Of a stretch of 64,000 nucleotides of DNA, positions 9,750-46,900 are shown in pieces; positions within the stretch are counted from its first letter, which is position 1; each line of letters begins with the position of its first letter. The notes under the pieces are model-generated. The model saw only the letters and a list, made by a program, of their open reading frames with translations. It did no database searches and was not told the DNA's origin. The DNA comes from Paracyclopina nana (Eukaryota > Arthropoda > Copepoda > Cyclopoida > Cyclopettidae). A program made the translations under genes and the position numbers. The stretch is from contig JAGUCH010000002.1 of assembly GCA_019096065.1 (NCBI GenBank), forward strand, positions 5,902,501 to 5,966,500. The letters run 5' to 3'.

Positions 9750-9799
9750 AAAAATGTGGAACGCTTCACGATTTTGCGTGTCATCCTTGCGCAGGGGCC

Positions 9800-9841
<42 letters not shown>

Positions 9842-9856
9842 CGCCGAAGCGGACAC
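9750..9856 (-). ncRNA. U6: U6 spliceosomal snRNA
   Basis: The minus strand carries the canonical U6 sequence: the CGCTTCGGCG 5' stem-loop, CATATACTAAAATTGGAACG, the ACAGAGA box, the AGATTAGCATGGCCCCTGCG segment and the 3' part with CAAGGATGACACGCAAAATC and GAAGCGTTCC. A run of seven T (9754-9748) forms the RNA polymerase III terminator. Length is 107 nt, as usual for U6. The 5' stem differs from the vertebrate one, but GUG pairs with CAC and CCGC pairs with GCGG, so pairing is kept. U6 base-pairs with U4 and U2 and forms the catalytic core of the spliceosome. Its promoter is external; a TATA-like box lies at the right distance. Confidence 0.95.
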
Positions 9857-20273: not shown

Positions 20274-20278
20274 GCAAT
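20274..20278. repeat. Target-site duplication of the BEL/Pao element (left)
   Basis: GCAAT directly before the 5' LTR is repeated at 31014-31018 directly after the 3' LTR. A 5-bp duplication is usual for BEL/Pao integrases. Confidence 0.9.
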
Positions 20279-20598
20279 TGTGAAGACATGGTACTCAAGA
20301 TGCGACGCAGCGACAACAACAAGCTGAGCCAAGCGGAAAATAGCTGTCAAACTGTCATCTTCTTCCCGCTTTTTATTCAGTTACTATCTAGATTTCGCAC
20401 GATCGACAATAAAAGTCATTTATTCGCGATCTCTAGAGTTTGACTACGTTTATTCAGTGATATTCCAGTAGAGTTCCATTGGTGAGTCCAGACATTCATT
20501 ACCATATTCCACTCGTACTTGGATTCGTTGATTCCGGATTCGCTTTGACAAAGCTTCACATCCTTGGATTATTGGACTTTCTCGTGATTACTCGAACA
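20279..20598 (+). repeat. 5' LTR of BEL/Pao element
   Basis: 320 bp, TGTGAAG...CGAACA, containing an AATAAA polyadenylation signal; identical to 30694-31013 except one base. Confidence 0.95.
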
Positions 20599-20616
20599 TG
20601 GCGCCCAACGGGTAAA
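20599..20616 (+). other. Primer-binding site
   Basis: TGGCGCCCAACG follows the 5' LTR with no spacer. It complements a tRNA 3' end of the type used by tRNA-Lys(1,2)-primed elements over about 12 nt. The tRNA identity is inferred. Confidence 0.75.
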
Positions 20617-20727: not shown

Positions 20728-23700
20728 ATGTCTGACAAGGACAAGAAAGAGGAAAGACCAAAAAGACTTCGAAAACCACCAGGTTGGCTACAAGGTTACG
20801 CAGTTGGAGGGAAGAGAACTTTAGGCCGTGAAGTCAAATACAGGCAGAAATCCCCAAAAAGGCCAGACAAAAGGTGGGGATTTAACGATACTACCATAGA
20901 CAGTTCCAGAGTAGAAATTCGAGAGGACCTAAACAGGTTCAGAGAAAATTCAACGGAATCGTCGGGCAGTATTAGGATCCTGGAAGACTACGAAGACATG
21001 GCGGCAAACACAACTGCGGAAATGGAGGCAGCCATAAAGGAACTAGTCAAAGTATCGCCGGCCACACTGGTGGAGAGGTGGAAGATCGATGCATCAGAGC
21101 ATTACTCGAACCTGGAGTCGATCAAAAAGGAGATCAGCACGGATAAACCAGCGAGAAAACTCAAAATGATTGCACGGAGGGCAAATTCATTGAAAATGGA
21201 GATTGCCATGGAAGCAGCCAGACTACTGGAAGGAATCAAGGGAGAGGACGCCCAAATGATCGCAAAGTTTAAAGCTGAAAGCGTGGAACCTCTCATGAAG
21301 GAAGCCAACGCAGTTGAGTACCTCGCGGAGAAAAACCATAAAAAGAAGGAACAAAAAGAGTTCGAGGAAATGCTCAGGGAGGAAGAAAAGGTTGAAAACA
21401 CTGACGTCACCATGCAAGAGGCCAACCAAGTTGAGGACGATGATGATGAAAACGAAGAGGACTACTTGGTCGATTGGGTCACGGAGCATTACGAGATGAC
21501 CGAGAGAATCAATGACCTCGCAATGGCAGCTAGAAGCGCATCGAAAACTGAGCACGAGGCCTTGGTCGCCAAGGCTCAGGATGCGGAAAACAAGAGAGCA
21601 GAGGCCGAAAAGCAACTGAGGGAGGCGAGGTCGAGAGGAGAAGAGGTCGATTTGCAAGCTGTAGTCACTGAGAAGAGACAGGCTGCGAGCAGCATGGAAT
21701 TCATCAAAAATCCTAGAGGAGGTGCTGCTGGGAGAGGTAGAGGAAGAGGAGGAGCCAGGGGAAAAGCATTCAAGTATCCTGGCGACCCCAATTTTTCAAC
21801 GCCTGCAGGAGCTGGTGCAGAAACCCCAAAGTTTGGAAATTACAGTCAAATCCCAGGAACACCCACATGGCAGCAGTCAGCAAACATCACTAGAGCTGAC
21901 TACAAAGAAAAGTTGACGCTAGAAGAATCGTACCTGGCGAAGGACACGGTGCTGGACGACTGGGAAGACTATGTCTCAAATGAGGTTGACTGGACAGATT
22001 TGTACAACAACAAAAACCTAACCCAGTACTATGACATCACAGCAGCACCAGATGTTGTAAGAGACAACATGAAAGGCTACTTCGATGGAGAAGACCCAGC
22101 AAAATACCGAGCTTTCAAAGAACTCGTCCATGCCAAGATAATAAAAAAGAAAAATTTGGACTGGTTTGACAAAATGGCCACACTAAAGGCATGGACTGGA
22201 GGCCAAGCATACCGGAAGATCGGAAGGTACGATTGCAGCAGACTAGGATTGGTGAAAGCGCTAAAGGCACTGGACGCTCAATACGGTAGCAACCATGGGG
22301 AGGCGGCTGAAATGTTGTCAAAGCAGATGCTACATATGGCAAGAATGCAGCCTGTGGATGTGAAAGCGCCAAACACAATTGGAGACATGGTCAACATCCT
22401 GGAAGAAATGGTCGACCTTAACATAAGATCGGGAAAGAATCCAAAAGATGGAGAGGACCACCTTCTTGGAATGATCAAAATGACACCAGACACGAAACAA
22501 GATTACAACGCTTTCCGGATCGCAAAGTTCCAATCGAAAAATTCGCTGAGGCTGTTTTTCACGTGGGCACGAGAACGAACACAAGAAGGAATGAGCGATA
22601 TGAAGGCCAGAAATACCAGAGAAGCGCTGAGGAGCAAACTGCCATCGGAAAGTCAGGCTGGAAGCTATGGCGGGCAGACCGAGTATGGCAAAAGAACAGG
22701 CCAAAAATACGTCAGATTCTACAACAAGAAAGGAAGGGAGGTGGTCATGGCAGTCGATGAATTGGAATCGTCATACTCAGAGGATGAAGGGAGCGACAAT
22801 GACGATGATGCAGTATTCCTTGGAGCTCACAAACAGAAGGATCCTTGCGTGATCTGTGGCGTGCACGATCACAAAGCATTGAAATGTGAGAGCTGGGAAA
22901 ATTATACCATACCAGACATCAAGAAGAAACTGGTGGGCGCAGGAATCTGCTTCAAATGCATAAGGGGAAAACACACAGTGGAGAATTGCAAGGCAAGAGA
23001 AAATTGCATCAAGTGTGGAGCAAGTGACCATCACAGCAAGCTACATGTGAATAATACAAGGAGATCGTCGGAGGGAGACGTGACCGCGGCATTGCTTGCA
23101 AGCATCGAACAAAGACTAGCGAGACTGCCAGCCCTTGAAAAGAAGTTGGATCAGTTGTCAAAGGAGGCAGTAGGCCTAACTGGAGGTGACCTCGGAAGTC
23201 GCCTGGATGACAAACCGGATGTGATCGCCTTGACAGCAAATGATACGAAGTCATGGAGAACATTGCCAATAGAAATCGCGGCAACCAGTGACTTTGCATC
23301 GTTCCTACCAATAAACATGGTGCTGGACGAAGGATCAAGCTTAACTATCATTGACCCAAAGCTTAAGGATGATTTGGACCTACAAGGAAAGGAAGAGATT
23401 TTGCGAGTCCACGTAGTGGGAGACGGAGACGTCATCAAACGAAAATCACACCAGACTGAGGTTTTCGTGAGAGCCAAAGGAGGCAAAAGGTGGTTCAAAC
23501 TGAGGGCAAAAACATTCGGCCTGCCAGCAGCGATTGAACCAGTGGATCCAAATGACATCAAGGTCAGCTACAAGGAGATAAGCAAAATTAACTTCCCACA
23601 ACCTGTCCCAGGTCCAGTCAGGATGTTGTTGGGCTTCGATAACCTGCACCTAATGAGAAGCATCCAGGACATTTATGTCCACAATGGGCCACTAGTAAGA

Positions 23701-23988
23701 AAAACCCCGTTGGGATGGACGATGCTCTATCACCCCAAGACGGGGGGACACGACGTGGCCATGATGGTTAGCGACTGGGGACAATACAATGCAGGGATGG
23801 CCTTAAAAGATAGCGAGCTGCAATTCATAGTTGATCGGAGCAATGGCATCGAGGCTTTGGGGATTGACAGGGACGAGGCCAGGTCAAAAAGCCTGACACT
23901 GGCAGATGAAATTGCACTAAAAGAAGATGCAAGAATCAATTCATCAAGACGAAAATGGACATTATGTCGTGGACATTGTGTGGATTGA
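20728..23988 (+). CDS. BEL/Pao ORF1: Gag with zinc knuckles and aspartic protease
   Basis: 1086 residues. The N-terminal third is highly charged and helical, with acidic runs and a Gly/Arg-rich stretch (about 331-350, GRGRGRGG). A gag-like helical core follows. Three zinc knuckles occupy about 707-773: CX2CX4HX4C, CX2CX4HX4C and a CX2CX4HX4H variant. The aspartic protease region has hydrophobic-LDEGSS at about 865-870; the usual D-T/S-G is D-E-G here. The reading frame continues through the typical protease-RT linker (KTPLGWTMLY) and stops 62 nt into ORF2. Gag packages RNA into virus-like particles and the protease matures it. Reaching RT requires a +1 frameshift or a separate initiation on ORF2. 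Confidence 0.9.
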   Translation: MSDKDKKEERPKRLRKPPGWLQGYAVGGKRTLGREVKYRQKSPKRPDKRWGFNDTTIDSSRVEIREDLNRFRENSTESSGSIRILEDYEDMAANTTAEMEAAIKELVKVSPATLVERWKIDASEHYSNLESIKKEISTDKPARKLKMIARRANSLKMEIAMEAARLLEGIKGEDAQMIAKFKAESVEPLMKEANAVEYLAEKNHKKKEQKEFEEMLREEEKVENTDVTMQEANQVEDDDDENEEDYLVDWVTEHYEMTERINDLAMAARSASKTEHEALVAKAQDAENKRAEAEKQLREARSRGEEVDLQAVVTEKRQAASSMEFIKNPRGGAAGRGRGRGGARGKAFKYPGDPNFSTPAGAGAETPKFGNYSQIPGTPTWQQSANITRADYKEKLTLEESYLAKDTVLDDWEDYVSNEVDWTDLYNNKNLTQYYDITAAPDVVRDNMKGYFDGEDPAKYRAFKELVHAKIIKKKNLDWFDKMATLKAWTGGQAYRKIGRYDCSRLGLVKALKALDAQYGSNHGEAAEMLSKQMLHMARMQPVDVKAPNTIGDMVNILEEMVDLNIRSGKNPKDGEDHLLGMIKMTPDTKQDYNAFRIAKFQSKNSLRLFFTWARERTQEGMSDMKARNTREALRSKLPSESQAGSYGGQTEYGKRTGQKYVRFYNKKGREVVMAVDELESSYSEDEGSDNDDDAVFLGAHKQKDPCVICGVHDHKALKCESWENYTIPDIKKKLVGAGICFKCIRGKHTVENCKARENCIKCGASDHHSKLHVNNTRRSSEGDVTAALLASIEQRLARLPALEKKLDQLSKEAVGLTGGDLGSRLDDKPDVIALTANDTKSWRTLPIEIAATSDFASFLPINMVLDEGSSLTIIDPKLKDDLDLQGKEEILRVHVVGDGDVIKRKSHQTEVFVRAKGGKRWFKLRAKTFGLPAAIEPVDPNDIKVSYKEISKINFPQPVPGPVRMLLGFDNLHLMRSIQDIYVHNGPLVRKTPLGWTMLYHPKTGGHDVAMMVSDWGQYNAGMALKDSELQFIVDRSNGIEALGIDRDEARSKSLTLADEIALKEDARINSSRRKWTLCRGHCVD

Positions 23989-26900
23989 AGACCCACCTAA
24001 CTTGCCAGAGAACTGGGAGAAAGCAAAGAGGATCCAAGCTGGTATAGATATGACACACAAAGCCGACAAAGAAGTCCATGAAGCCGTCACAAAGACAATG
24101 AAGGAATATCTGGAAAAGGACATTATTGAAAAAGTCCCAATAAAAGATCAGAAGTCCGGCTTTTGGCTAACATTTTTCTGTGTGGCAAAGAGGTCGAGTT
24201 TGACCACAAAATTTCGATTCGTCTATAACGCAGCACAAAAGTTTGATGGAGTGAGCATTAATGACTGCCAGTACACGGGACCCAATTTTCTAGAGGACAT
24301 ATTTGACGTGCTATTGAAGTTCAGATTTGGTGAAGTTGCAGTGGCAGCAGACATCGAAAAAATGTACCTCATGATTGGAGTACCGCCGAAGGACAGAAAA
24401 TACCTGCGCATATGGGTTTTTGGGGAGGCATACCAGTTCAAAAGGTGGCCCTTCGGACTTAGGGCAGCTCCAAGCGTAGCCAACTTTGTGGTCAAGCACC
24501 ACTTGAATAAGTTTGGCACAAAAGAGCTCAGAGAGCACATCCAAATCTATATGGACGACATGTTGGTGGCCTTCCCAGATGAAGAGACCGCAATCAGGGT
24601 CACCAAGGAGGCCACGGAATTGCTGGAGAAGTGCGGAATGAAATTGAGGAAATTCGTGTCAAACTCAAGGGCAGTGATGGATAGCATACCACTGGAGTTC
24701 CAAGAAAAATCCTTAACCCTTGAAGGAAGCGAAGGAGGCCAAGTGCTACACTCAACACTTGGCATAAGCTGGGACACAGAGAAGGATTTGCTGGGTTACA
24801 AGTTCGTCAAACCAGACCTGCAGAAAATATCAAAAAGAACAATACTGGCAGAGCTTCACAAAGTATTCGACCCACTAGGAATTCTTGCTCCATTCATGAT
24901 ATTTGGGAGAGAAAGCTTTCAATGGATCTGCATGGCAGAAAAGGAAGTGAAGATCAAGTGGGACTCTGACCTCACAAAGATCGACAATGAATTGGTGAAG
25001 AAAGCACTCAAAAGATTCGAAAAATGGGTTGGCCAGCTAGAAGACGCATCCAAAGTGAGCTACCCTCGGAAGGTAGCCACCCAGATCGAGGGCTGTGAAC
25101 TCCATTTCTCCAGTGATGGATCAGACATAGGATTCGGCTGCACGGTCAACGTGGATGACGGAAAAGGCAACTTCAACATACTCACGACGAAGGCCAAATT
25201 ACAAAAACCAAAGAAGCACACGATACCAAAAGTAGAACTTGCAGGAGCATTGATGTCAGCAAGGCTGTCGAATAGATTGAGGGAAATGTTCAAGATCAAG
25301 AGAGAACACATCCACTACTGGGTGGACAACAAGCCAGTGATATGCTGGATAAGAAAGCCAGGCGTGGAAAGAGAGGTCTTCATAAGAAATAGAACGATCG
25401 AAATCAGCGACACTACAGAACTCGAAAAGTGGAATTACATCAACACACTGGACAATCCAAGTGACCTCGCCTCACGAGGATGCACAATAGCAGAGCTACT
25501 GAAGGATGAAAAGTACTGGAAAGGACCAGACTTTTGGAGGAAAGAAAAATCCGAATGGCCTAAGTACGAGTTGGAGGTCACTGAGGACGAACTAGCTGGA
25601 AGCATTGATAAGATCTTTTTAACGGGCCTCGGACGCCCAGTCAACATCAAAAGCGACCAGAAAGGCAACATCCTGGAACACAAGGTCAAGCTGAACAAAG
25701 AAGTAGGAATAGCAAGAGCGAGACAGGTGTTCAAAAGGATGCAAAAACTGAAGTTGAAGGAAAACGCATACAGATGGCCAATATTAGTGAGAGGAATCAC
25801 CCGAGTCAAAAATTTGCCTCAGACGGATGATTCACTACCACTGGACATCATCGCAGAAACAGTGACAGAGCTCGTAATTTTGGGCCAGTGGCGAACATTA
25901 GAGTCAGAAATCACTAACTACGAAAAAACGGGAAATTGGCAATCGAAGGAAATAAGAAAGTACAACCCAGTCTTTGACGAAGATGGAGTACTGAGACTAT
26001 TCACGAGGAACGCGAAGCAAAAGGATCTACCACAGAGCAGGATATTCCCAATCTGGATGGAAAAGTCATGGGTCTTCACGCTGATTGTCTGGAGAATACA
26101 CGTCACAAATGGACACCTAGCAGCGGATCAACTTTGGCTAAAGCTGACAGAAACATTTGGAGGACCAAATGTGCGAAAATTGGCCAAAAAGATAAGTGCA
26201 CAGTGCCCGCAGTGTACACGCTGGAGGTCTAAGATGCTAACGCAGTTGATGGGCCCAGCGCCAGATCTTGAGTTGGAAAATATCAAGCCGTGCAGCAAAG
26301 TAGCGGTAGACTTCACAGGCTTCTATCACGTAGAGCTGAAAGGACAAAAGCTCAAGGCTTACGTACTGGTTACAGTGTGCATACAAACGAAGGTAGTAAC
26401 ACTGGAAACCACAATGGGCAGAAGCTCAGAAGACCTAGTGCTAGCATTCCAAAGACTCACTGCAAGAAGAGGACCAATAAATGTCATCTACAGTGACAAT
26501 GAAGGATCATTTGAAAAAGTTGGCGTGAAGATCAACAGGCTTCCGGAGAAAAGAAAGAAAGACAGACAAGAAGTAGTTGACTGGAAAAAGGTACAACTAA
26601 CCGTGAGCGACAAAGTGAGAGAATGGTACTTCAACCCGCCAAGAGACCATGAAGCGAACGGTCTCGTGGAAAGTCACGTCAAACTTGTTAAGCGAGCCTT
26701 GGAAGCTTGCGAACATGGGACGTATGACTACGAAGTATTCCGGACGATGGTGTCTATGGCAGAGGACAGACTCAACAGTAAACCATTAGCAATCCTGAAA
26801 GGAAAAGAGGGGTATGAAGTAATAACCCCAAATCACCTAATCACAGGAAGAACGGGGGAGTCAGTATTCATGGAGGTCGCAGCCCAGTTCTCAGACACGC

Positions 26901-27214
26901 TCAGAAAACTGGCGGACCACATTACGAAGATGAACAAAATGGATTTCTATCTGCAAACAATGCACGTCAGAGCAAAATGGCACAACGAAAAAGAAAATCT
27001 ACACGTGGGAGACAGAGTGGTTGTCGCCACCGAAGAAATGAAAAAACATCGACCTCGATGGGAGGTTGCAACAGTCGAGAAAATATTGCTTGGTGGAAAA
27101 GTTAGAACAGCGATGGTGAGAACAGTCAAACATGGGCTTCTAGAAAGAGGCATAAGGCAGCTGGCCTTGTGCCAAAATCTACCACTGATCAATGATGAAG
27201 ACCAAGACCAATGA
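23927..27214 (+). CDS. BEL/Pao ORF2: reverse transcriptase, RNase H, integrase
   Basis: 1095 residues. RT shows VAADIEKMY, the WPFGLRAAPSVAN block and the catalytic YMDD box near residue 207. RNase H shows SSDGS, KVELAGAL and YWVDNK acidic motifs (about 395-470). Integrase has a zinc-binding HX3H...CX2C module (about 725-765) and a DDE triad in VAVDFTG, YSDNEGSF and LVESHV (about 795, 857, 913). The BEL-type C-terminal domain ends the protein. The first ATG follows an in-frame TAA by 6 nt inside the ORF1 3' end, so ORF2 lies +1 relative to ORF1. It is fully open, as expected of a recent and possibly active insertion. Confidence 0.93.
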   Translation: MQESIHQDENGHYVVDIVWIEDPPNLPENWEKAKRIQAGIDMTHKADKEVHEAVTKTMKEYLEKDIIEKVPIKDQKSGFWLTFFCVAKRSSLTTKFRFVYNAAQKFDGVSINDCQYTGPNFLEDIFDVLLKFRFGEVAVAADIEKMYLMIGVPPKDRKYLRIWVFGEAYQFKRWPFGLRAAPSVANFVVKHHLNKFGTKELREHIQIYMDDMLVAFPDEETAIRVTKEATELLEKCGMKLRKFVSNSRAVMDSIPLEFQEKSLTLEGSEGGQVLHSTLGISWDTEKDLLGYKFVKPDLQKISKRTILAELHKVFDPLGILAPFMIFGRESFQWICMAEKEVKIKWDSDLTKIDNELVKKALKRFEKWVGQLEDASKVSYPRKVATQIEGCELHFSSDGSDIGFGCTVNVDDGKGNFNILTTKAKLQKPKKHTIPKVELAGALMSARLSNRLREMFKIKREHIHYWVDNKPVICWIRKPGVEREVFIRNRTIEISDTTELEKWNYINTLDNPSDLASRGCTIAELLKDEKYWKGPDFWRKEKSEWPKYELEVTEDELAGSIDKIFLTGLGRPVNIKSDQKGNILEHKVKLNKEVGIARARQVFKRMQKLKLKENAYRWPILVRGITRVKNLPQTDDSLPLDIIAETVTELVILGQWRTLESEITNYEKTGNWQSKEIRKYNPVFDEDGVLRLFTRNAKQKDLPQSRIFPIWMEKSWVFTLIVWRIHVTNGHLAADQLWLKLTETFGGPNVRKLAKKISAQCPQCTRWRSKMLTQLMGPAPDLELENIKPCSKVAVDFTGFYHVELKGQKLKAYVLVTVCIQTKVVTLETTMGRSSEDLVLAFQRLTARRGPINVIYSDNEGSFEKVGVKINRLPEKRKKDRQEVVDWKKVQLTVSDKVREWYFNPPRDHEANGLVESHVKLVKRALEACEHGTYDYEVFRTMVSMAEDRLNSKPLAILKGKEGYEVITPNHLITGRTGESVFMEVAAQFSDTLRKLADHITKMNKMDFYLQTMHVRAKWHNEKENLHVGDRVVVATEEMKKHRPRWEVATVEKILLGGKVRTAMVRTVKHGLLERGIRQLALCQNLPLINDEDQDQ

Positions 27215-30200
27215 ATTAAAATCACCTCGCAACGATTCTAACGAACAACGAAACCAAGCAATAAACAATAATCACGCAACCCACAACACGAAACCGGAAA
27301 TTACGAAAGAAAACAAAAAACTCGCCAAATCACAACTCGTTAAAGATCAACCGCCAAAATTGATAGAAGAGAATTCGACCTCGCTGAGGTCATTTTTCGT
27401 CGACTCCCACCGCCGAGAACGACTAATTACAACGATTGTGAGTAAAGTAACCGAATCCACGACTAAAATAAAACTATTCCTACGTAAAATACTAGACAAT
27501 ATATCAAGAGTGGCCTGGGAAGTTCTATTGGTCAACGAAATGCCGTCAGGACGCGATCGTCGAGGCCGAAGCAGAAGCAAGTCTAAGGAACGAGACGCGA
27601 GGAAATTGATCGATCGATCGAGGTCGAGGGATGTACAGAAGGAAGAAGAACGAAGACGGGAGGCCGAACGAAGGGAAAAAGAACGGCAAATAATCGAAAA
27701 CACCAATAAGCGCAGCAGGGAAAAAAGCGCTTCCACTTCACACGAGGCAAGAACGCCTAAGCTGGAGCGATCAAGCCCTGGACGCTTGACGCCCAAGCTC
27801 AAGGCACGACTCGGGCCAAGGCTGGCCTCGGACAGCAGCCAAGAAGAAAGCAGCCCAAGAACTTCGAACCAGCCTCCAGACCCACCATTGGAAGAAGTCA
27901 TCCGCCGATGGCAGGAAAGAACCGGGGCGAGAATCATAATTTACGACGACTACAACACTGACGAAATCAGGGATCTCTTCGAAAGGTACTATCATGACCC
28001 AGGAACAATAATTCTAGGTAGCACGCTCAATTTCGGGCCGAGGAACGAAGTACTGTACATGCCGAATAGCAACAGAAAAAAGGCCCAGAAAATTGACCTC
28101 CTGAAAGCGATGATTAGAGCGATAATGCTATACCATGGAGTGCCACCGAATGAAGCAATGTTGATATCACACGGTGCGCAGTACATCAGGGCAGTCGACA
28201 AGTTTGGGAAATTTCCCCCGAGACAAGTACTAGAAGACGAAGAGAGGCTCCAATTTTTGGCAGCAAGACAAATTCTCGAGCAGGAAGCGATGGGGTCTAT
28301 GGAATCAGGCTTGGAAGTCAGGGACCTTTTCAAAGCGATTGAGAACGGGAAAGGAATGGCACCGATGCCAGAAATTGCCAAAGTCTTAAACGATGGGCCA
28401 AATTCAAACACGCTTTACTTGAGAAGGACGGCGAATGTCTTGACAAACGAAGACGTAAAGCAACTGGCGGCAGTCAAAAAGGGGTTCAGAATATGGACCA
28501 GAGAAAGCCTCCAGGAAGCGTTGGACTGGCTAAAAGAGGCGTGTAGAATGGAAGGAAAAAACATGAAAATGGTACACATCGAAGATAAAGAACAACAAAC
28601 ACCAGAAGAAATGATGCCTGTCAGGGAAAAGGTGGTAATAAAAACCATCGAAAAGATCGTCGAGGTTCAAAAGGCATCAGATCACGGACATCTGAGCCCA
28701 GAACCAATGGAAGTAGAAGCAGGACCATCAACAAGATCGACAAGAAAGACATCATCAACCTCAACAAGCTCAGTCAACTATATTCCCGCTGGAGCAGAAG
28801 ACGAGTATTACGAAAAAACCCCAGGAGAAGATATGATATACGTACCAAAGAGACGGTCAAGGTCAAGCTCGAGAGGCAAGGTCGACTTCAAACCACCAAT
28901 GGAGGATGAAAAGAAGCCTAGGCTGACATCGAAGCATTGCCCAGACATTGAATTCGGCATGCTAATTGGAGCAGCTGAGTCGGAACGATATGGGAAAAAG
29001 AAATGTAAAATTCACCTATGCCAATCAACAAACCCGTTCACCAAGGACGAATGCGTCAACAGGCAAGAAAACATTTTTCCCCCACTCACTGTAAAAGACG
29101 CTCTTAGAAATGCCACGATGGCCAAAGGAACAAAATACGATCTGTTTGACCAAAAGAAAAGAGTCACATATATACTCGGAAGAACCAATGATGCGAAGAA
29201 CGAATACTGCTCTGAGCACTGGGAGGAAATTGAAGCTAAACTGGAAGAGAAAGGCTTTTTCAAGGAGATAATGGATACGAGAGTCATGACAATAGACACG
29301 GAAGGGATGTCTGAAAAATATAAGAATGCCTACATCGAAGGACAAGAAATAACAGTCGGAGAACATCGCGATATATTCGCATACGCGCATTTTGGGGCCA
29401 CAAATGGAATCGCGCTAGGAGTAAGAGTAATGTTCGTGGGCTACAAAGTCTTAGGAAAAGAAATCCCACAAAGAGTAAAGGATCTATTGAAAGACAAACG
29501 AGTATGCAAGGTGCAGTTTGGCATCGACTCTGACCTACGAAAATTTGCGAGGGTGGGAGCAAGAGTCATCAACTGGGTAGACGCTCAACACCTAGTAATG
29601 CTACTCGACCCGCAGATGAGTTCAATAAACCCAAAGTCAGGGAAAGACGGAGCCCTGACAATTATGGGAGTCGAGAACAAGATCCAAAAAGTGGACTATA
29701 GAGTCGAGCACAGAGCGATCGACGTCGACAAATACGAAGAAAAGATATTGTACTACGATAGACAGGATCTGTTCACACCACTGGCTTGCCTGGAAATGGT
29801 GGCAGCGTGCTCAGTCATGAGAGTGGGAGGAGATGAAAAGGCTGATTGTAGAGGCTATATGATGTTCTGGCTTGCACAATTGAGAGACAGACCATTCAAG
29901 TTTGGAGGTCAAGCCATACGAGTCTACGAAGGTCTCCTAGAGAGCCATGGACGCCCTCGGGGGACAAAAGTAGACGATGGCCTGCAAGGACTCAAGTATA
30001 CAAACGTAAAATATAATACCGAGAAGACAGTGGTTGAAAACTTCCGAGACTTTGACAAGGAATTCCAATTGCAAAAGTGGTATCTGAAGGCCGAAGAAAA
30101 GGAAAAAGTCCAGGAGCTGGAGACAGACATGGTGAGCTACTTGGAAGACTGGCACGCCCCAGGAGTAGTCCACGAGGCTATCGAGCGAGCAATGGCTGTT

Positions 30201-30560
30201 CCAGAGTCACTTGAGCAAGGAATGAGGCTAGAAACGCCTCATCCTTGTCGAAAGTGCGGAAGAAACGATCACAAGGAAAAAGATTGCGATGAGAAAATGC
30301 ACTGCTTGAACTGTTTCAGCTCACAACACAAAACAGATGCGTGCACTTACTACACAGTCAGGTGCACACTTTGCGGGGACTTTGGTCACTCGCAACAGAT
30401 GCACATGTCAAGAGACCTGGTCCAGCTACACGTGAAGAAAAGAATAGTAGCATACAGGCATGCGATTGGAGCTGTCACATTGGATAGAAACGCGAAATTC
30501 AAGGCAGTTCGCGAGAGGGATGGAATGTCGCTAAGAAGGATCGACAAGCACCGAAAGTGA
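27192..30560 (+). CDS. BEL/Pao ORF3: DEDDy exonuclease-like protein with zinc knuckles
   Basis: 1122 residues. Residues 1-230 are basic with RS and R/E-rich stretches; 230-440 form a mixed alpha/beta region I do not recognise; 440-600 are low complexity. A C-terminal part resembles an RNase D-type 3'-5' exonuclease. Exo I is MTIDTEG (D702, E704), Exo II is FGIDSDLRKF (D781) and Exo III is YDRQDLFTPL (Y855, D859). Order, spacing of about 78 residues and the YxxxD pattern fit the DEDDy class. Three zinc knuckles follow (about 1019-1071: CCHC, CCHC, CCHH). No signal peptide or transmembrane span was seen, so it is not env. The start overlaps ORF2 by 23 nt. Exonuclease activity and role are inferred from motifs only. 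Confidence 0.85.
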   Translation: MMKTKTNELKSPRNDSNEQRNQAINNNHATHNTKPEITKENKKLAKSQLVKDQPPKLIEENSTSLRSFFVDSHRRERLITTIVSKVTESTTKIKLFLRKILDNISRVAWEVLLVNEMPSGRDRRGRSRSKSKERDARKLIDRSRSRDVQKEEERRREAERREKERQIIENTNKRSREKSASTSHEARTPKLERSSPGRLTPKLKARLGPRLASDSSQEESSPRTSNQPPDPPLEEVIRRWQERTGARIIIYDDYNTDEIRDLFERYYHDPGTIILGSTLNFGPRNEVLYMPNSNRKKAQKIDLLKAMIRAIMLYHGVPPNEAMLISHGAQYIRAVDKFGKFPPRQVLEDEERLQFLAARQILEQEAMGSMESGLEVRDLFKAIENGKGMAPMPEIAKVLNDGPNSNTLYLRRTANVLTNEDVKQLAAVKKGFRIWTRESLQEALDWLKEACRMEGKNMKMVHIEDKEQQTPEEMMPVREKVVIKTIEKIVEVQKASDHGHLSPEPMEVEAGPSTRSTRKTSSTSTSSVNYIPAGAEDEYYEKTPGEDMIYVPKRRSRSSSRGKVDFKPPMEDEKKPRLTSKHCPDIEFGMLIGAAESERYGKKKCKIHLCQSTNPFTKDECVNRQENIFPPLTVKDALRNATMAKGTKYDLFDQKKRVTYILGRTNDAKNEYCSEHWEEIEAKLEEKGFFKEIMDTRVMTIDTEGMSEKYKNAYIEGQEITVGEHRDIFAYAHFGATNGIALGVRVMFVGYKVLGKEIPQRVKDLLKDKRVCKVQFGIDSDLRKFARVGARVINWVDAQHLVMLLDPQMSSINPKSGKDGALTIMGVENKIQKVDYRVEHRAIDVDKYEEKILYYDRQDLFTPLACLEMVAACSVMRVGGDEKADCRGYMMFWLAQLRDRPFKFGGQAIRVYEGLLESHGRPRGTKVDDGLQGLKYTNVKYNTEKTVVENFRDFDKEFQLQKWYLKAEEKEKVQELETDMVSYLEDWHAPGVVHEAIERAMAVPESLEQGMRLETPHPCRKCGRNDHKEKDCDEKMHCLNCFSSQHKTDACTYYTVRCTLCGDFGHSQQMHMSRDLVQLHVKKRIVAYRHAIGAVTLDRNAKFKAVRERDGMSLRRIDKHRK

Positions 30561-30693: not shown

Positions 30694-31013
30694 TGTGAAG
30701 ACATGGTACTCAAGATGCGACGCAGCGACAACAACAAGCTGAGCCAAGCGGAAAATAGCTGTCAAACTGTCATCTTCTTCCCGCTTTTTATTCAGTTACT
30801 ATCTAGATTTCGTACGATCGACAATAAAAGTCATTTATTCGCGATCTCTAGAGTTTGACTACGTTTATTCAGTGATATTCCAGTAGAGTTCCATTGGTGA
30901 GTCCAGACATTCATTACCATATTCCACTCGTACTTGGATTCGTTGATTCCGGATTCGCTTTGACAAAGCTTCACATCCTTGGATTATTGGACTTTCTCGT
31001 GATTACTCGAACA
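30694..31013 (+). repeat. 3' LTR of BEL/Pao element
   Basis: 320 bp, one substitution from the 5' LTR, followed by the GCAAT duplication at 31014-31018. Confidence 0.95.
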
Positions 31014-31018
31014 GCAAT

Positions 31019-32350: not shown

Positions 32351-33454
32351 GATTGACTCCCGCACATTGTGGTTGCTCAAGACTACGAATTGAGTGGGAA
32401 AAAAATTTGCCAGGTGATTTTTTTCCCGGGAAAAAATTCCCCTGCTTAATTTTTTTCCCAATGTATTTGTTTACGTTTCGTTTTTCCCTATTATATGCTA
32501 GTCTTGGTAGAGAAATAAACTGAGAACTATTTGGAAATTGAAACCTAACCAGGGATTTTCGGTTACCGGTAGAGAAAATCTAGTGATTCATTTCCTTTTG
32601 AACTATTGGCGAGCACTTTCAAAACACTCGCACTCTGAGGTTGATTTGGATTGATGAATGCAATGCTGCAAGCCTTCATTATTCCAGGTTTATGTCAGGC
32701 AATATCTTCAATGGACCCGCAAAGTACTTTTACATGATCACAATCTAGTATGGTGATCCCGACTGTCACTGAATCCTCAACTATGTTGGTACAGTCATAG
32801 GTGCCTCCTCAGACAACTTCTAAATTATGTTTATTCCCAAAAAAATAGTGTGTTCACAATTTTGAGCATGAAATCTTTGAAAACACAATAATAATGTTAC
32901 TAAAATATACAGTAATTAAGAATATTTCTAGGAGCATCAAATAGAATATATAATATTACAATTATGATAGTTGACTCAATGTTGAAAAATTGATGCAAAA
33001 ATCAAATTTTGACCTAAATAATTTTTTTCCGAATTGGATACAAGGTGTATTTGAAGTATTTTCCATTTACTGATCAAAAAGGTACTTTGCATTTTTTAGT
33101 ACGTTCAAGATAATCGAATATTGCCTTGTCATGTACCAAAGTGCACCTACGAAAAAGAAGAACCTGTAAAACAAGTTTCTGTGGCATAGTCTCTTTTGGA
33201 GACTTCATAGTGGGATTGCCGCGTTCATTACCAATTCTTACGTAGCTACACTGCACAAAAGAATCGATAATAACCATGTCTTTGAAACGGTGCAGTCTCC
33301 AGAAGAGACTGAGCCTTTGAATTGTACTATCTTAAGCCACAAAAACTTTGGAAAAAATTGAAATTCAGTTTACATGAAGCTTTTGTGTTAATCAGCCATG
33401 TTGAGTAATTTTGAAAAATGCTACACAAGTTTTAAACACTTGTCATAGATTGCA
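32351..33454. other. Intergenic sequence, no gene recognised
   Basis: AT-rich, with short homopolymer-rich segments. Nothing recognised. Confidence 0.4.
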
Positions 33455-34314
33455 ACATAAGTTAACATTTTTCACTGAAGCTGTAAGCTAGGATTTCAAC
33501 TCAACGGTACCTAATGCGAGAGCAATACTCTTTTTGAAAAATGTAAGTTAACATTTTTCACTGCAGCTGTAAGCTAGGATTTCAACTCAACGGTACCTAA
33601 TGCGAGAGCAATACTCTTTTTGAAAAATGTAAGTTAACATTTTTCACTGCAGCTGTAAGCTAGGATTTCAACTCAACGGTACCTAATGCGAGAGCAATAC
33701 TCTTTTTGAAAAATGTAAGTTAACATTTTTCACTGCAGCTGTAAGCTAGGATTTCAACTCAACGGTACCTAATGCGAGAGCAATACTCTTTTTGAAAAAT
33801 GTAAGTTAACATTTTTCACTGCAGCTGTAAGCTAGGATTTCAACTCAACGGTACCTAATGCGAGAGCAATACTCTTTTTGAAAAATGTAAGTTAACATTT
33901 TTCACTGCAGCTGTAAGCTAGGATTTCAACTCAACGGTACCTAATGCGAGAGCAATACTCTTTTTGAAAAATGTAAGTTAACATTTTTCACTGCAGCTGT
34001 AAGCTAGGATTTCAACTCAACGGTACCTAATGCGAGAGCAATACTCTTTTTGAAAAATGTAAGTTAACATTTTTCACTGCAGCTGTAAGCTAGGATTTCA
34101 ACTCAACGGTACCTAATGCGAGAGCAATACTCTTTTTGAAAAATGTAAGTTAACATTTTTCACTGCAGCTGTAAGCTAGGATTTCAACTCAACGGTACCT
34201 AATGCGAGAGCAATACTCTTTTTGAAAAATGTAAGTTAACATTTTTCACTGCAGCTGTAAGCTAGGATTTCAACTCAACGGTACCTAATGCGAGAGCAAT
34301 ACTCTTTTTGAAAA
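33455..34314. repeat. 86-bp satellite, ten tandem units
   Basis: Ten head-to-tail units of exactly 86 bp, each containing GTAAGTTAACATTTTTCACT, CAACTCAACGGTACC and GAGAGCAATACTC. Units 2 to 10 appear identical by eye; unit 1 differs at a few bases. The homogeneity points to recent expansion. The unit has no long ORF and no internal spacers, so it is a satellite and not an interspaced array. Confidence 0.95.
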
Positions 34315-34826
34315 ATGGGCTTTGCTTGTTAGAGTGTCCTCTCCAGTTATCAAAAAAAGGGATTGTGTGCGAGTGCCAACTATTGTGATGTAGTTTTGCT
34401 GCAAAAAGGATACCCGAGAAGAGGCATGTAAGAAATGTAGCGGCAGAAGAGCTTCATTGAATCAGCATTATCCAAGCCCCCAGAGAATAATTTCATGCAT
34501 TAGTCATCTTGATCTTGAAGCATTATTATTTAGAGCCGAATAGACTTGCGTATTCATGTGGACGTGCTAATGGAAAATCATTTGAAATGCGCCTTCCAAG
34601 CCAAATAACATATCAGTTTAGGTAATCGACGAAGCATGCAGGTGGTGCGTGAGGTCGCGTTTGTTTTGATGGAAAAATACTGGGCAGCAGCAAACTCTCG
34701 TACGCTCGCGCGCTTCGCTCTGCACATTTTTGGTAACTGCCCGCCTCGTGTGCTTTATAAGCATCGACGCTCTTGGATTGACGCTACAGTGAGAAAGCAA
34801 ACGTTAAACTACCCGCATCGCTAAAA
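34315..34826. other. Upstream region of the AS3MT-like gene
   Basis: About 500 bp between the satellite and the methyltransferase start codon. It should hold the promoter; no named element was recognised. Confidence 0.4.
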
Positions 34827-40949: not shown

Positions 40950-43900
40950 TCAGTCATAGTATCCTCGAGGCGGACCTTGCTGGCTGTAGTAGTTGGGTTG
41001 ATTATAACCAGATGATGGTTGTGGATACATTCCTCTCTGAGGATAACCAAATGGTATGTTGGGCTGCGGTTGCATTCCATATTGGTACTGAGGAGTCATT
41101 CCATACCTTTGTGGGATTTGCTGAGGTTGGTGATGTTGAGGTTGGCTAGCAGAATACCCATTGCTGTAAGAGTCAGAGGAGGACCTCATGTAATCATAGG
41201 GGTCAAAACTTGACCTTGATGATGCCCTTCTATAAGGCTGTTGCTGTTGCTGCTGTTGAGTGGAATCAGACCTCATGTAGTCATAGGGGTCAAATTGAGG
41301 TCTTGAAGCTCTTCTCACTGGCTGAATTGGTTGCTCCTCATAGAAATCTCTGCTTCTTGGTATAGGAGATACCGACTTCCTGCCATACACTCTTTGATCT
41401 CCACCTTCAATGTCGTGGATGATTTTGCTCATATCTCTTCCTCTTGTTCTCATTTTGAGATCATTTATCATTGTGTCCAGCTCATCATCATCATTAGATT
41501 TAGGCCCCACGGACCTTAGTGGCATTCTTGCCTCTGGGCTGCTTCTATCTGAAAACCTGTCAGCCTCGTTTGAAGATTGATAGCTGTATTTTCTGCTCGG
41601 CAAGGATGTTCTAGAAGGCTGTCTCATTGGCTGTTGATATTCTGGAGGATAAAGACTTTCTCCAAGAATTTCATCTGCCATTCTCGAAACATCTAATGAT
41701 TGCTGTTGGTGCTCCTCTTGACCTCCCCTGTTTCTAAGAAATCTTGAGGTCTTTCTTGTTTGCTTTCTAGGAAGGAGGTCTTCTTCAAAGTCATCCACCT
41801 GAGAACTGTACTCTTGCAGCTGAGCTGTGGACTCTTTAAGCTTTGACAAGAGACTTCTCGTCTTGCTTGACATCAATGATTCCTCTGCTTGGTTGTAACT
41901 CAGAGGCTGCTGGTATTGTTGAGGAGGCTGTCTCACTTCTGGCTCCCACATTGATCTTGTCCTCACTGATTTGGCCTTATCTAGAATGAATCTGGAAGTC
42001 TCATCTAATTGAGGTGGTGCTTGAACATTATCCGGCTGATGTTGAGCATATCTTGGTTGTGGAAATAGATCTTCATCTTGGTAAAAATCTTGCTTTGGTT
42101 GCTGAGCTGCATACCTGGTTGGTGGGGCTTCGGGCATGTCATGTTGAAGGCCATACTTATTAAGGGCCCTACTTTTGGTCAAAAGTCCACTGTAGTAGTC
42201 TCGGATGTCATTGATGTCGCTATCATCCTTTGGAGGGCCGAACTCATACGCGCTTGGCCTGTACTTATCCAAAGAGGCCAATGTAGCATCTTCATCATCC
42301 AAATCATCCAGAAGGGGCAAATTTCTCCTTCTAGTGCCATAAGGCTTGTAGTCTACGTCTAAATCAAAAGACTCCTCGTATGCTCCATTTGATGAAGTTG
42401 TGCCATTCAATGAGCCTTTACCGTTCACAGAGGCAGCTTGTCCATTGATTGAAGCTGACCCATAAAAGTCTTCATCATTTTGACCATTGGGTTCAGCTTC
42501 AACTAATGAACTTTTGGCCTTGGCAGCAGCTTCTTCTAGATCAATTGGTTCATCAAGTAGCGTAATTTTCTTGATTGGCTCATCAAGGCCTTGTCTCTTT
42601 CGATTTAGCTTGTCTTTTGGAGACAGATAGAACTCCACGCCATTATCATCAATCAAAGTGTAGCTGGCCTCACCCATGAGAATGCTCCTTGAAGCCTCTC
42701 TTGGAATGATTGCTTGGTAGCCCTCTTTGAGGATGATCAGAGCTTTGGAGCACTCCCAAGGAATCTCTTCTACAAGAGACTCTGAAAGGAAGTTCTGCAG
42801 CCACTTCTCATCCTTGTTGTCTGATGAATTCTTCATTGCCATGAAAGCATTCATGGGGATGTCTTTTGCTGTCATTATCATAGACTTGGACTTCTTCACC
42901 ATGGACTTGGACTTTTTCAAAGTCCCCCTATGCGGTGGTCGAGTGAGAGCCTCGCAAATCCTTATAAGCTCTCGCAAGCTTGTATCATCGTCGTCTGAGT
43001 TATTTTCCTCACTGGACTGGAACCGTTGAAGCTTTTCAAGCTTTTGCCGTTTTCTTGCATCCTTAGATGTCAACTTTTGCATCACTAAAATCTTGTTGAG
43101 CACATCCTTAATTACTGGGTCGTCCCTAATGGCTTCTAGCCTGATTGGATCACCAATCAGCTCGAACAGACTGTCAACAACGTCCGACTTTCCCATGTAC
43201 TTGGCAAGACCTATGGCTTGCTCCAACATTGAACGCAGATCCTGATCCTTCTCTAGAACCAGGCCATCGAGCTCTACTTTGTGCACAACATCATCGAGGT
43301 GCATTTGGCACCTGTTATTGATGACTTTAGTAATGGCAAAGTGAAGAATGTCTATAGCTGTGAATCCTTCAATGTCTCTGGGGTCCCTTCCTTTGAGACT
43401 GTCAAGCACTTCTTGAACGAATTCCGGACTAGTGCTGCACATTTCCTTGAATCCACTCTGGAGGTGGAGCCTTGGCGCCAAAATGTTGATGAGTCTCGTC
43501 AGGAGCTCACTTGTCCCCAAATTTCCGACTGTTGATGACCTAAGGTTGCTTAGCAATGTATCCATGAACTTGCTGTTGCATCTGCCCTCTGTGACTGCTT
43601 CAACCTTAGCAAAAAATGACTGATTCTCATCAAATTCCAGATCTTTGGCTAGATTGACCAGCTCTCTTATATCAGCCATAAGACCATTGGAGATAGTGCC
43701 ATCTTCTTCCAGGATACCCTTGATTGAGTCTTCAATGTAGGACATCAAAATAGTTTTGAATTTGGCTTCATTCATGTCTGCTTCCGAGCAGCATTCCTTC
43801 AATGCTCCTGGGATGGAGCAGGTTATGATTCCTGCCACAAGGTTTAGTATATCAAACTCCTCTGGATCATCTGACCTCTTTTCCTCACAATATCTTCTTA

Positions 43901-46900
43901 GTGCTTCCAAAGCAGGATTTAACTTCATGCTTGACATCATTAAAGTAGAGTTCAATCTTCCATTGAGGATTTCGTCAATGTAAGCATTCATATGGGCAAT
44001 GATTTCATCAATCCTTTTGCACAAGTCAGCAAACACATCCATGAAGGAGCTTTTGACCATTCTCCTAATGGCTGGAGTATCACAAGAGTCCAGCATTTCA
44101 TCTTGCAGCAGTTGGTCTACATCTTCTCCTTCTCCGAAAGTGATAATGTGGTTGTTGTTTCTGCTTTCAAATCCATCAGCCAAGGCTTTCAGTGCTTCAG
44201 AGCCAATTGATGCTCCACCAATGCCACCGAGGATGTCAGATACATCAGAGTTATCCAGAATATTTTCATTACCCAGAATGAGTCTTGCTTCAGTGGGACT
44301 GATGTCAAAGCCTTGAACAATATAATCAAGATCCACGCCCTCTCCTTTGATGTCAGGAGGCAATAACCTGGGGCCTTCTGGAGTATCCACTACATGTCCA
44401 GGTAGGAACCTTGCTCCTTCAGGGGCATCAATGACCTGGGCAGGCACAAAAAGAGCGCCATGTGAAGTCTCCACAATCAGACCAGGCACAAACTTGAGTC
44501 CATTGTCAGTTCTGATGACTTGGCCTGAGAAAAGTTCAAGTTGGCAATCTAAATTCAATTTGCTACGCGGAGGTTTGGCTTACCTGGTATGAATACAGCA
44601 GCACCAGACTTCGTTTCAATCATTTTGCCTGGCACAAATTTCACAGATCCATCTGGCTGCTTCAAAATCTCTCCAAGAATGAATTTTTCATCCCCATCCT
44701 CTGACTCAATAACTTGACCAGGCAGAAATGTGCCACCATTCTTCCCATCTACCATCTTTCCTGGCACAAATACATCCTCTCCAGTGAGCTCATCCTTCAT
44801 CATCTTGCCAGGGATGAAGGTCTTGATGCCATGTATTTCCATCACCTTCCCTGGCACAAAGGTTGGGCCATTCTCTTTATACTCCATTCTTCCAGGAACG
44901 AGTTGGCCACCTGGTGTTGAGGGAATTTCGGGGCCACTGTTTGGATAGAATTCAGTTTTTCCATTGGGAGCAATGAGCATAGTTCCAATCTTTGGCTTGA
45001 TCTTTTTGTACACAACAGTAAGCCCCTCTCCATCAATTGCCATTGGTGGTGGTGATGGGCTTTTCCTCGACCTCATGTCATCTGAATTGTGGCTTTTTTG
45101 AAATTGGTCACTTTTCATGCTGCCAGGAATAAAGAGTGTTTCATTGCTCCTGAAAAGTTTGCCCTCAACAAACAGAGTGCCCTTTTTGCCAACATCACAA
45201 ACCAGTCCTGGCACAAAAACCTCATTTTCATCATATATGCCCGGCAGGAACTGTCCTTTGATGATTTCTCCATAAATGAACAGGGACCTCTCTATCATTT
45301 GCCCTGGTTGAAATTCTCCGTTCACTCTCTGGCCAGGAATGAATAGTGGCTTGCCATTATCATTTACAGTGGCTGCCATCTCTCCAGGGAGGAACAAAAT
45401 ATCTTCCTGCTCAGTCATCAGTATCCCAGGATGGAACCTTGAATGCTCCCCGCCTTCATCAATCACTGCCCCAGGGAAAAAAGTGCCATCGTTGAGAAAA
45501 ATTCCAGCCACAAACTTGAGCCCATCTTCTGTAACTATGGTTTCTCCCTCAACAAATTTTGGGCCAGCCTTTGAGTGAACCACTTGACCGGCTACAAATG
45601 ATACGCTTGATCCATCATTGATGAATTGACCTGCTGAGAATTTTTCTGCGGTCATGCATCCAGGTATGAATTGGAAATGCCCCTTTTCATCTTTGATGCT
45701 TGCTCCAGGAATGAACTCTCCTTTCACGCTAGCCATTCGCTGGCCTGGGATAAAGTCTCCATTGGCAAAGAAGTGGCCAGGAAAAAACCTTGTCAGCTCC
45801 TTAGTCTTGAAAATGGCGCCCACAACAACATTAGAGTCGTTTGGTACTGAGCTCGGGTTTTCGGCAAACTTAAGCCCATCGCCAGAGTCAAATATACAGC
45901 CCTTCCTCACTAGGTTTTTCGCCGACATGGCCAGGTTGAACTCTTCCAATGTTGGCAGGATTTTGATGGAGTCTTCGTTGCCATTTGCAAACATAGAGAA
46001 AAGGCTCCAAGAATTGCTGAAGCTATCATCCAAAATTGTCTCTTCAACGTATTTTGTCAGCTCTTCTGAGATATTGGTTGAGGCTTGGATGGCCTCTCCT
46101 AGGAAGGGAACGATTTCAAGACCATTACTATCTGGGATGAACACGTTTTTTCGCCGCTTCATGCTTGGCAGATCCCTGGTAACTAGAGCCGCTTTCTTGG
46201 GCATCCCTGATGGACAATCCAGGTCCATTTGCCTAACCTTGTCGATCCTTGCCCAATCTAGCTTGTCCACGTGTGCATTTAAAATGCACTCTTTCCATTG
46301 GGGCCCATATGCAGCCATGTTGCATTCAGGCAAGTACAGGTCCCTGAAGTGGTTGATTGCCAGCCTGTATTCTTTGGCAGCCTTAGACTTGTAGGTAAAA
46401 GCCTTGCCATGACCTTTTGGCCTTTCCAAATCTCTCTGAAGCTCTTCATCTGCCTGCCTTTCCAGGTCTTCAAAGATCTTTTTGTTTTGCAATGTTCTTT
46501 TCTTTTTCTCGTCTAAAACCTTGTTCTGTTTAGCCAGTGTCTCTTTTGATTGGCCTTGGCCTTCCAGCAGTGACCCAGTTGACTTGATATCAACCTCTTT
46601 CAGCGGCACAAACACAGTTGGTTTTCCTCTAACTGAAAAAAGAAAAAAAATGAGTCTGCAAACGCCAGGGAAAATTTTTAGTGCTTTTTGAGTTGCTTAC
46701 TTTTGAATATGACTTTATCACAAGTCTTGGAAAGGCTAACAGTCTCCATCTCTCCTAGCCTTATTGCTTCTTCCACCTCTGCTGGAACAATAAGGCCACA
46801 TAACACGTTGGGCATCATGTACACAAACAGCTGATCATCTTTGACCCCTCGTTTTAGCCTTTTGAGTAATTTCTGAAGATCTTCAAAGGCTTTGCCATCC

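Follow-up and report, generated by a model that had tools for sequence, protein, structure and literature searches.

The third open reading frame (ORF3) of a BEL/Pao LTR retroelement in the window (the 64,000-nucleotide stretch of Paracyclopina nana DNA analyzed here) most likely encodes an RNP-associated 3′-5′ exonuclease and not an envelope protein, as judged from sequence comparisons. We consider it likely that ORF3 is a third BEL/Pao gene, in which a DEDDy exonuclease is combined with zinc knuckles, and that its product serves in 3′-end trimming auxiliary to replication.

The element lies on the forward strand, as do all features described below, and is bounded by two 320-bp LTRs (5′ LTR, positions 20279 to 20598; 3′ LTR, 30694 to 31013) that have TG...CA termini and are 100% alike. 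A 5-bp target duplication, GCAAT, flanks the element (20274 to 20278 and 31014 to 31018). Because the LTRs are identical, the insertion is, on this evidence, recent. The primer-binding site read from the sequence, TGGCGCCCAACGGG, abuts the 5′ LTR (20599 to 20612) and is presumably of the tRNA-Lys type. ORF1 (gag; 20728 to 23988) contains three zinc knuckles, starting at residues 707, 741, and 760, and a weak aspartyl protease match (Pfam E value of 0.029). ORF2 (pol; 23927 to 27214) matches the Pfam families RVT_1, Peptidase_A17, and DUF5641 above their cutoffs and two integrase domains slightly below theirs; Peptidase_A17 is taken as the BEL/Pao RNase H (PMC3985635). ORF3 (27192 to 30560) is an open frame of 1,122 amino acids that overlaps ORF2 by 23 nt. 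When pol was compared to a protein database, 82 matches to BEL/Pao-type proteins were obtained at 23 to 34% identity, with named sources including insects, spiders, a tick, a bivalve, and cnidarians. The element is placed in BEL/Pao, as the original prediction had it, because ORF2 contains RVT_1, Peptidase_A17, DUF5641, and near-cutoff integrase domains; the order of reverse transcriptase, RNase H, and integrase, the LTR termini, and the short target duplication agree with this sequence-based assignment.

Sequence matches across the host genome (92 Mb, 10 contigs) show that ORF3 has a fixed place after pol. Searches of this genome returned at least 43 matches to pol (42 of 336 candidates scored) and at least 47 to ORF3 (41 of 273 candidates scored). 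An ORF3 match in the same orientation followed 36/43 of the pol matches listed at a distance of no more than 4.5 kb, and ORF3 lay downstream in 32/32 of the near-full-length pol matches listed (over 900 residues, ≥43% identity). The seven listed pol matches that had no ORF3 match comprised four partial ones and three from two distant copies (30 to 33% pol identity), and 5 of the 47 ORF3 matches listed had no pol match upstream. Over the 21 copies whose ORF3 match is long and in a single row, pol identity and ORF3 identity to the window copy drop in step (rho = 0.85).

The original prediction placed the three motifs of a DEDDy nuclease in ORF3 at a spacing of about 78 residues, and all of the named residues are where it put them: D702 and E704 of ExoI (29295 to 29303), D781 of ExoII (29532 to 29534), and Y855 and D859 of ExoIII (Y-x3-D; 29754 to 29768), with 79 residues from D702 to D781 and 78 from D781 to D859. 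The bare motif is by itself weak and nonsignificant evidence, because a loose pattern (D.E, D, and Y...D at about the spacings of ORF3) was present in 44% of 2,000 ORF3 shuffles. A stricter pattern with hydrophobic context, composed after the sequence had been inspected, was found in 0/2,000 shuffles.

The Pfam match, in contrast, is significant. In a Pfam scan of ORF3 up to an E value of 1, PF01612 was the sole match, with E values of 9.4e-4 for the whole ORF and 8.6e-5 (22.8 bits) and 6.9e-5 (23.2 bits) for two cuts of the domain. The best score of the window copy is 0.4 bits short of the 23.6-bit cutoff, which two paralogues exceed. Seventeen of 28 ORF3 exonuclease domains match PF01612 at an E value of ≤0.01 (lowest, 8.6e-6), with no match to any other family; the remaining 11 fall short of 0.01. 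A genome-wide PF01612 scan gave nine matches, all above the cutoff, of which two are ORF3 copies other than that of the window (27.7 and 25.3 bits) and seven are in other frames; the host frames are labeled EXOSC10-, EXD2-, EXD1-, and Egalitarian-like on an assumed resemblance. The NCBIfam scan gave no match, and PHROGs gave four weak matches (E values of 0.0068 to 0.095), two each with the domain piece and the whole of ORF3 as the query, all to families of unknown function.

To assess conservation, 40 ORF3 loci were taken from the genome, one of them being the window copy. Nine loci in which ORF3 was broken or too partial were excluded (L157, L159 to L162, L171, L187, L191, and L192), and two partial copies that are open across the exonuclease domain and knuckles (L186 and L190) were kept, yielding an aligned set of 31 ORF3s (the window copy plus 30 paralogues). 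The exonuclease domain, delimited at residues 684 to 890 (29241 to 29861) by PF01612, is conserved in 31/31 ORF3s. No substitution occurs in the 31 sequences at D702, E704, D781, Y855, D859, or any of the 12 zinc ligands, over a range of exonuclease domain identity to the window copy of 0.34 to 0.93; the 31 sequences are not independent tests, since they include near-duplicates such as L168/L169 and L182 to L184. Of the 32 Asp/Glu residues in the exonuclease region of the window copy, 6 are invariant, and four of those six are the predicted catalytic acids.

Substitution patterns point the same way and indicate that the exonuclease domain is under strong purifying selection in the lineage of the window. 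Its dN/dS is 0.03 to 0.06 in three of four usable copy pairs, and dS is saturated in the fourth; two of the three involve copies that are nearly identical to each other (L183 and L184, each paired with L182). Between the window copy and L154 to L156, the domain has a pN of 0.05 to 0.07, a saturated pS of 0.80 to 0.89, and a pN/pS of 0.05 to 0.09, lower than the 0.12 to 0.17 of the middle region; against L158, the pN/pS is 0.22 in the domain and 0.35 in the middle region. Word-based searches, including a database of 5.8 billion proteins, found no ORF3 relatives outside this genome: residues 600 to 1122 gave 7,629 protein candidates, none with an E value of ≤1, and a 287-residue domain piece gave 652, none with an E value of ≤10. 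A viral contig search with ORF3 and pol returned nothing useful.

Comparisons with known structures place the domain, weakly, near DEDDy nucleases. A profile of 28 exonuclease domains, searched against 177,635 PDB sequences, gave first WRN (E value of 0.011), EXD2 (0.019), and diDNase (0.044), each a weak match; the best five of eight matches were WRN or EXD2 exonucleases or diDNase, which are DEDDy nucleases (E values of 0.011 to 0.16). PDB searches with single sequences gave three weak, unrelated matches apiece. Against 21 phage and bacterial DEDDy domains, hhalign aligned ExoI, ExoII, and ExoIII of ORF3 in one piece (P value of 2.5e-4, Prob of 43%), and against four bacterial sequences it placed ExoI and ExoII correctly at a Prob of just 3 to 6%. 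A narrow profile of phage PolA/NrnC domains missed ORF3 (0.5 bits; shuffles reached 4.4). When the ORF3 profile was run against six host DEDD-like frames and 54 phage or bacterial domains, the EXD2-like host frame, the best among the host DEDD frames, was the only one to pass the inclusion threshold (E value of 5.7e-6). A fold model built on an alignment of known DEDDy sequences, and hence biased to that fold, was of middling quality (pLDDT of 62, pTM of 0.59), with Foldseek E values of ≥0.018 and 7 to 18% identity in the fold matches listed; a single-sequence fold made without an alignment was uninformative (pLDDT of 32). The DEDDy exonuclease-like domain that had been predicted is therefore supported by the PF01612 profile and by its conservation in 31/31 ORF3s, and weakly by the modeled fold.

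Three zinc knuckles follow the exonuclease motifs, as the original prediction had noted, at residues 1019 to 1071. Motif and alignment place two CCHC knuckles at residues 1019 to 1032 (30246 to 30287) and 1038 to 1051 (30303 to 30344) and one CCHH knuckle at residues 1058 to 1071 (30363 to 30404), in agreement with the nucleocapsid-like pattern C-x2-C-x4-H-x4-C, with ligands invariant in 31/31 ORF3s. A profile of the ORF3 knuckles scored those of gag at 26.7 bits, and 500/500 shuffles with C and H held fixed scored lower, by a small margin (maximum, 25.6). This result, for which shuffles rather than unrelated knuckle proteins were the control, is suggestive of an array derived from gag. The N terminus of ORF3 is basic and arginine/serine rich.

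ORF3 also occurs without the active site in further lineages of this genome. The two distant copies L226 and L227 have ORF3 frames of 1,056 and 1,136 amino acids that are homologous by the family profile (E values of 7.6e-28 and 4.7e-24, as calculated for one sequence) and retain all 12 zinc ligands. With the ORF3 of L227 as the query, at least 49 matches were obtained (41 of 239 candidates scored), forming a second large family. In eight further copies (L228 to L235), analyzed for the exonuclease piece only, this piece matches the ORF3 exonuclease profile with E values of 3e-15 to 7e-8. To compare active-site residues, these ten copies were aligned with the 31 ORF3s in two MAFFT runs. The original prediction counted on conservation of the acids in homologous ORF3s; this held in 31/31 members of the window's lineage but not in the other lineages, where both ExoI acids are replaced by nonacidic residues in 10/10 sampled copies. 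The ExoII Asp is replaced by Thr, Ala, or Ile in five copies (L226, L227, and L233 to L235; L235 has an Asp one residue off the position) and by Glu in the other five (L228 to L232). The ExoIII region aligns poorly; there, five copies have Glu and five have Thr or Val in place of the Asp, one copy retains the Tyr, and a whole-ORF3 alignment gave different residues for L226 and L227. Because a Glu at ExoII is also seen in 3/21 phage DEDDy domains, the call of active-site loss rests on ExoI.

Given the invariance within the window's own lineage, we take the ORF3s of the other lineages to be dead derivatives. Since these sister lineages keep the domain and lack the ExoI acids, the ORF3 protein can evidently persist without catalysis. 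ORF3 probably predates the split of the lineages within this genome, and we infer that the simpler history is one in which the ancestor was active and losses followed, because regain of a complete catalytic set is unlikely. The shared core comprises the knuckles and the domain, and the active-site set is retained under strong selection in one lineage. The older role, common to the lineages, is probably nucleic acid binding, given that one lineage keeps the active site and the others lost it yet kept the domain. A broader scheme, possible but doubtful, is that an exonuclease-fold ORF3 is ancestral in a large BEL/Pao group, with one lineage active on its own reverse transcription intermediates (in 3′-end trimming or proofreading) and its sisters reduced to dead binding scaffolds, which would make an enzyme-to-pseudoenzyme series within a single genome.

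The function that we favor for ORF3 is that of a nucleic acid-binding 3′-end trimming factor of the replication complex. In such a protein, composed of a basic Arg/Ser-rich N terminus, a DEDDy domain akin to those of RNase D, EXD2, and WRN, and three knuckles like those of gag, the knuckles would hold the RNA or cDNA of the element, and the two-metal DEDDy site would trim 3′ ends (of RNA, tRNA primer, or cDNA) within the replication complex, as an auxiliary replication step and not as an envelope function. The roles proposed originally (trimming, proofreading, and degradation of small RNAs) remain speculative. Egalitarian, EXD1, and Maelstrom are host proteins that use the DEDD fold for RNA binding, and they resemble the ORF3 lineages lacking the active site, whereas the ORF3 of the window keeps the active-site set. 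By analogy, ORF3 could be mainly a noncatalytic RNA adaptor or packaging protein in which catalysis is incidental; we judge this rather unlikely, because in the window's lineage all five residues are invariant in 31/31 members under strong constraint, which would not be needed for binding alone.

Other readings of ORF3 are less probable still. A role against silencing, in which ORF3 would trim or degrade small RNAs of the host, is improbable, as rows within 1 Z are tied and the gag-like knuckles indicate the element's own nucleic acid. Slightly less probable again is that ORF3 proofreads for the reverse transcriptase of the element: the matches to the biased, middling fold model do include proofreading domains of family A DNA polymerases, but ORF3 occupies a frame separate from the reverse transcriptase, and related BEL/Pao elements of the same genome have an ORF3 with an incomplete active site. 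That ORF3 is envelope-like, its resemblance to an exonuclease having arisen by chance, is very improbable. Its position after pol and the frequency of the loose motif among shuffles would allow for this, but the profile and conservation evidence argues for a DEDDy domain, and hydropathy, the only measure used here, gave no transmembrane-type segment in the window ORF3 (highest 19-residue value, 1.57) or in any of the 31 lineage members (1.82).

The premise that LTR elements normally lack an exonuclease needs qualification, since Rodriguez et al. had already described DEDDy ORF3s in 2017 in the Juno and Vesta LTR retrotransposons and the Athena retroelements of bdelloid rotifers, proposing RNA 3′ end processing with catalytic activity yet to be demonstrated (PMC5408684); the finding is repeated elsewhere (PMC6431247, PMC5718144, and PMC6338049). 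As in the window, these elements have an RNase D-like DEDDy ORF3 after pol that replaces env and has no transmembrane segment, and a Cys-His-Cys motif is noted in Vesta2 and Vesta5 (PMC5408684). By description, however, the bdelloid LTR elements are retrovirus-like whereas that of the window is BEL/Pao, their DEDD is reported as altered to DEED, and the available passages contain neither the term "zinc knuckle" nor mention of dead sister lineages (PMC5408684). Some Dada DNA transposons have a DnaQ-like exonuclease of the DEDDy type in which the four catalytic acids are all present, located inside the transposase rather than in a separate ORF3 of an LTR retroelement (PMC3706591). ORF3 shares ExoI, ExoII, and ExoIII with Y-x3-D with EXD2, WRN, and RNase D (PF01612), WRN and EXD2 being the best by profile, and differs from them in some 18 to 20 additional residues between ExoI and ExoII, in its fusion to zinc knuckles, and in being borne by a retroelement. 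Among the listed titles, abstract openings, and passages of the open-license PMC literature, none described an exonuclease ORF3 in a BEL/Pao element. What is new relative to the known systems is the BEL/Pao host element, the knuckle array, and the co-occurrence of lineages that keep the active site and lineages that lack it.

A BEL/Pao case would make the retroelement exonuclease a recurrent accessory gene, beyond the retrovirus-like LTR elements of rotifers. Many natural copies with intact or lost sites occur in one genome, so the need for a nuclease versus an RNA-binding fold is directly testable. If active, ORF3 would bear on why reverse-transcribing elements normally manage without a 3′-5′ exonuclease.

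As a separate observation on the host genome, degenerate repeats of the TTAGG type, the arthropod telomere unit, are present at 10 of the 18 contig ends examined.

The exonuclease domain of the window ORF3 is ∼90% identical to those of three of its paralogues in the same genome (L154-L156), yet synonymous sites between them are saturated, and the two LTRs of the window copy are identical despite this saturation. Taken together, the saturated synonymous sites and the identical LTRs point to old families and a recent insertion. N-terminal to the exonuclease domain, at residues 572-610 of the window ORF3, D572, C583, C605, and C610 are invariant; these four residues may constitute a further metal site.

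The P. nana genome also contains a second large ORF3 family (e.g., contig C4, 7320316-7323723), and in its sampled members the active site of the exonuclease is missing; for many of the matches listed for this family, the open frame spans 900-1195 aa. A third, more divergent ORF3 group (L228-L232) is 24-26% identical to L227, the query that listed the second family. Its exonuclease domain is homologous, the acidic residues of the ExoI motif are lost, and the ExoII position is occupied by Glu.

Among the matches listed in the genome, 25/32 near-full-length pol matches are held in open frames of 2074-2307 aa, a length sufficient for gag and pol in one frame. In the window copy (20728-27214), gag and pol are split over two frames that overlap by 62 nt; a frame difference may be present in the copy itself or in the assembly.

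Elsewhere in the window, two long frames of 1202 and 686 aa lie side by side on the reverse strand (40953-46615), for which no Pfam matches were obtained up to an E value of 0.1. A U6 snRNA gene is located at 9750-9856 on the reverse strand (Rfam, 116.5 bits), and a tandem array of an 86-bp unit, with identical central copies, occupies 33286-34445. At the contig ends of the host genome, degenerate TTAGG-type arrays were present at 10 of the 18 ends read (L193-L210), and GGCCA-type pentamer arrays at three further ends.
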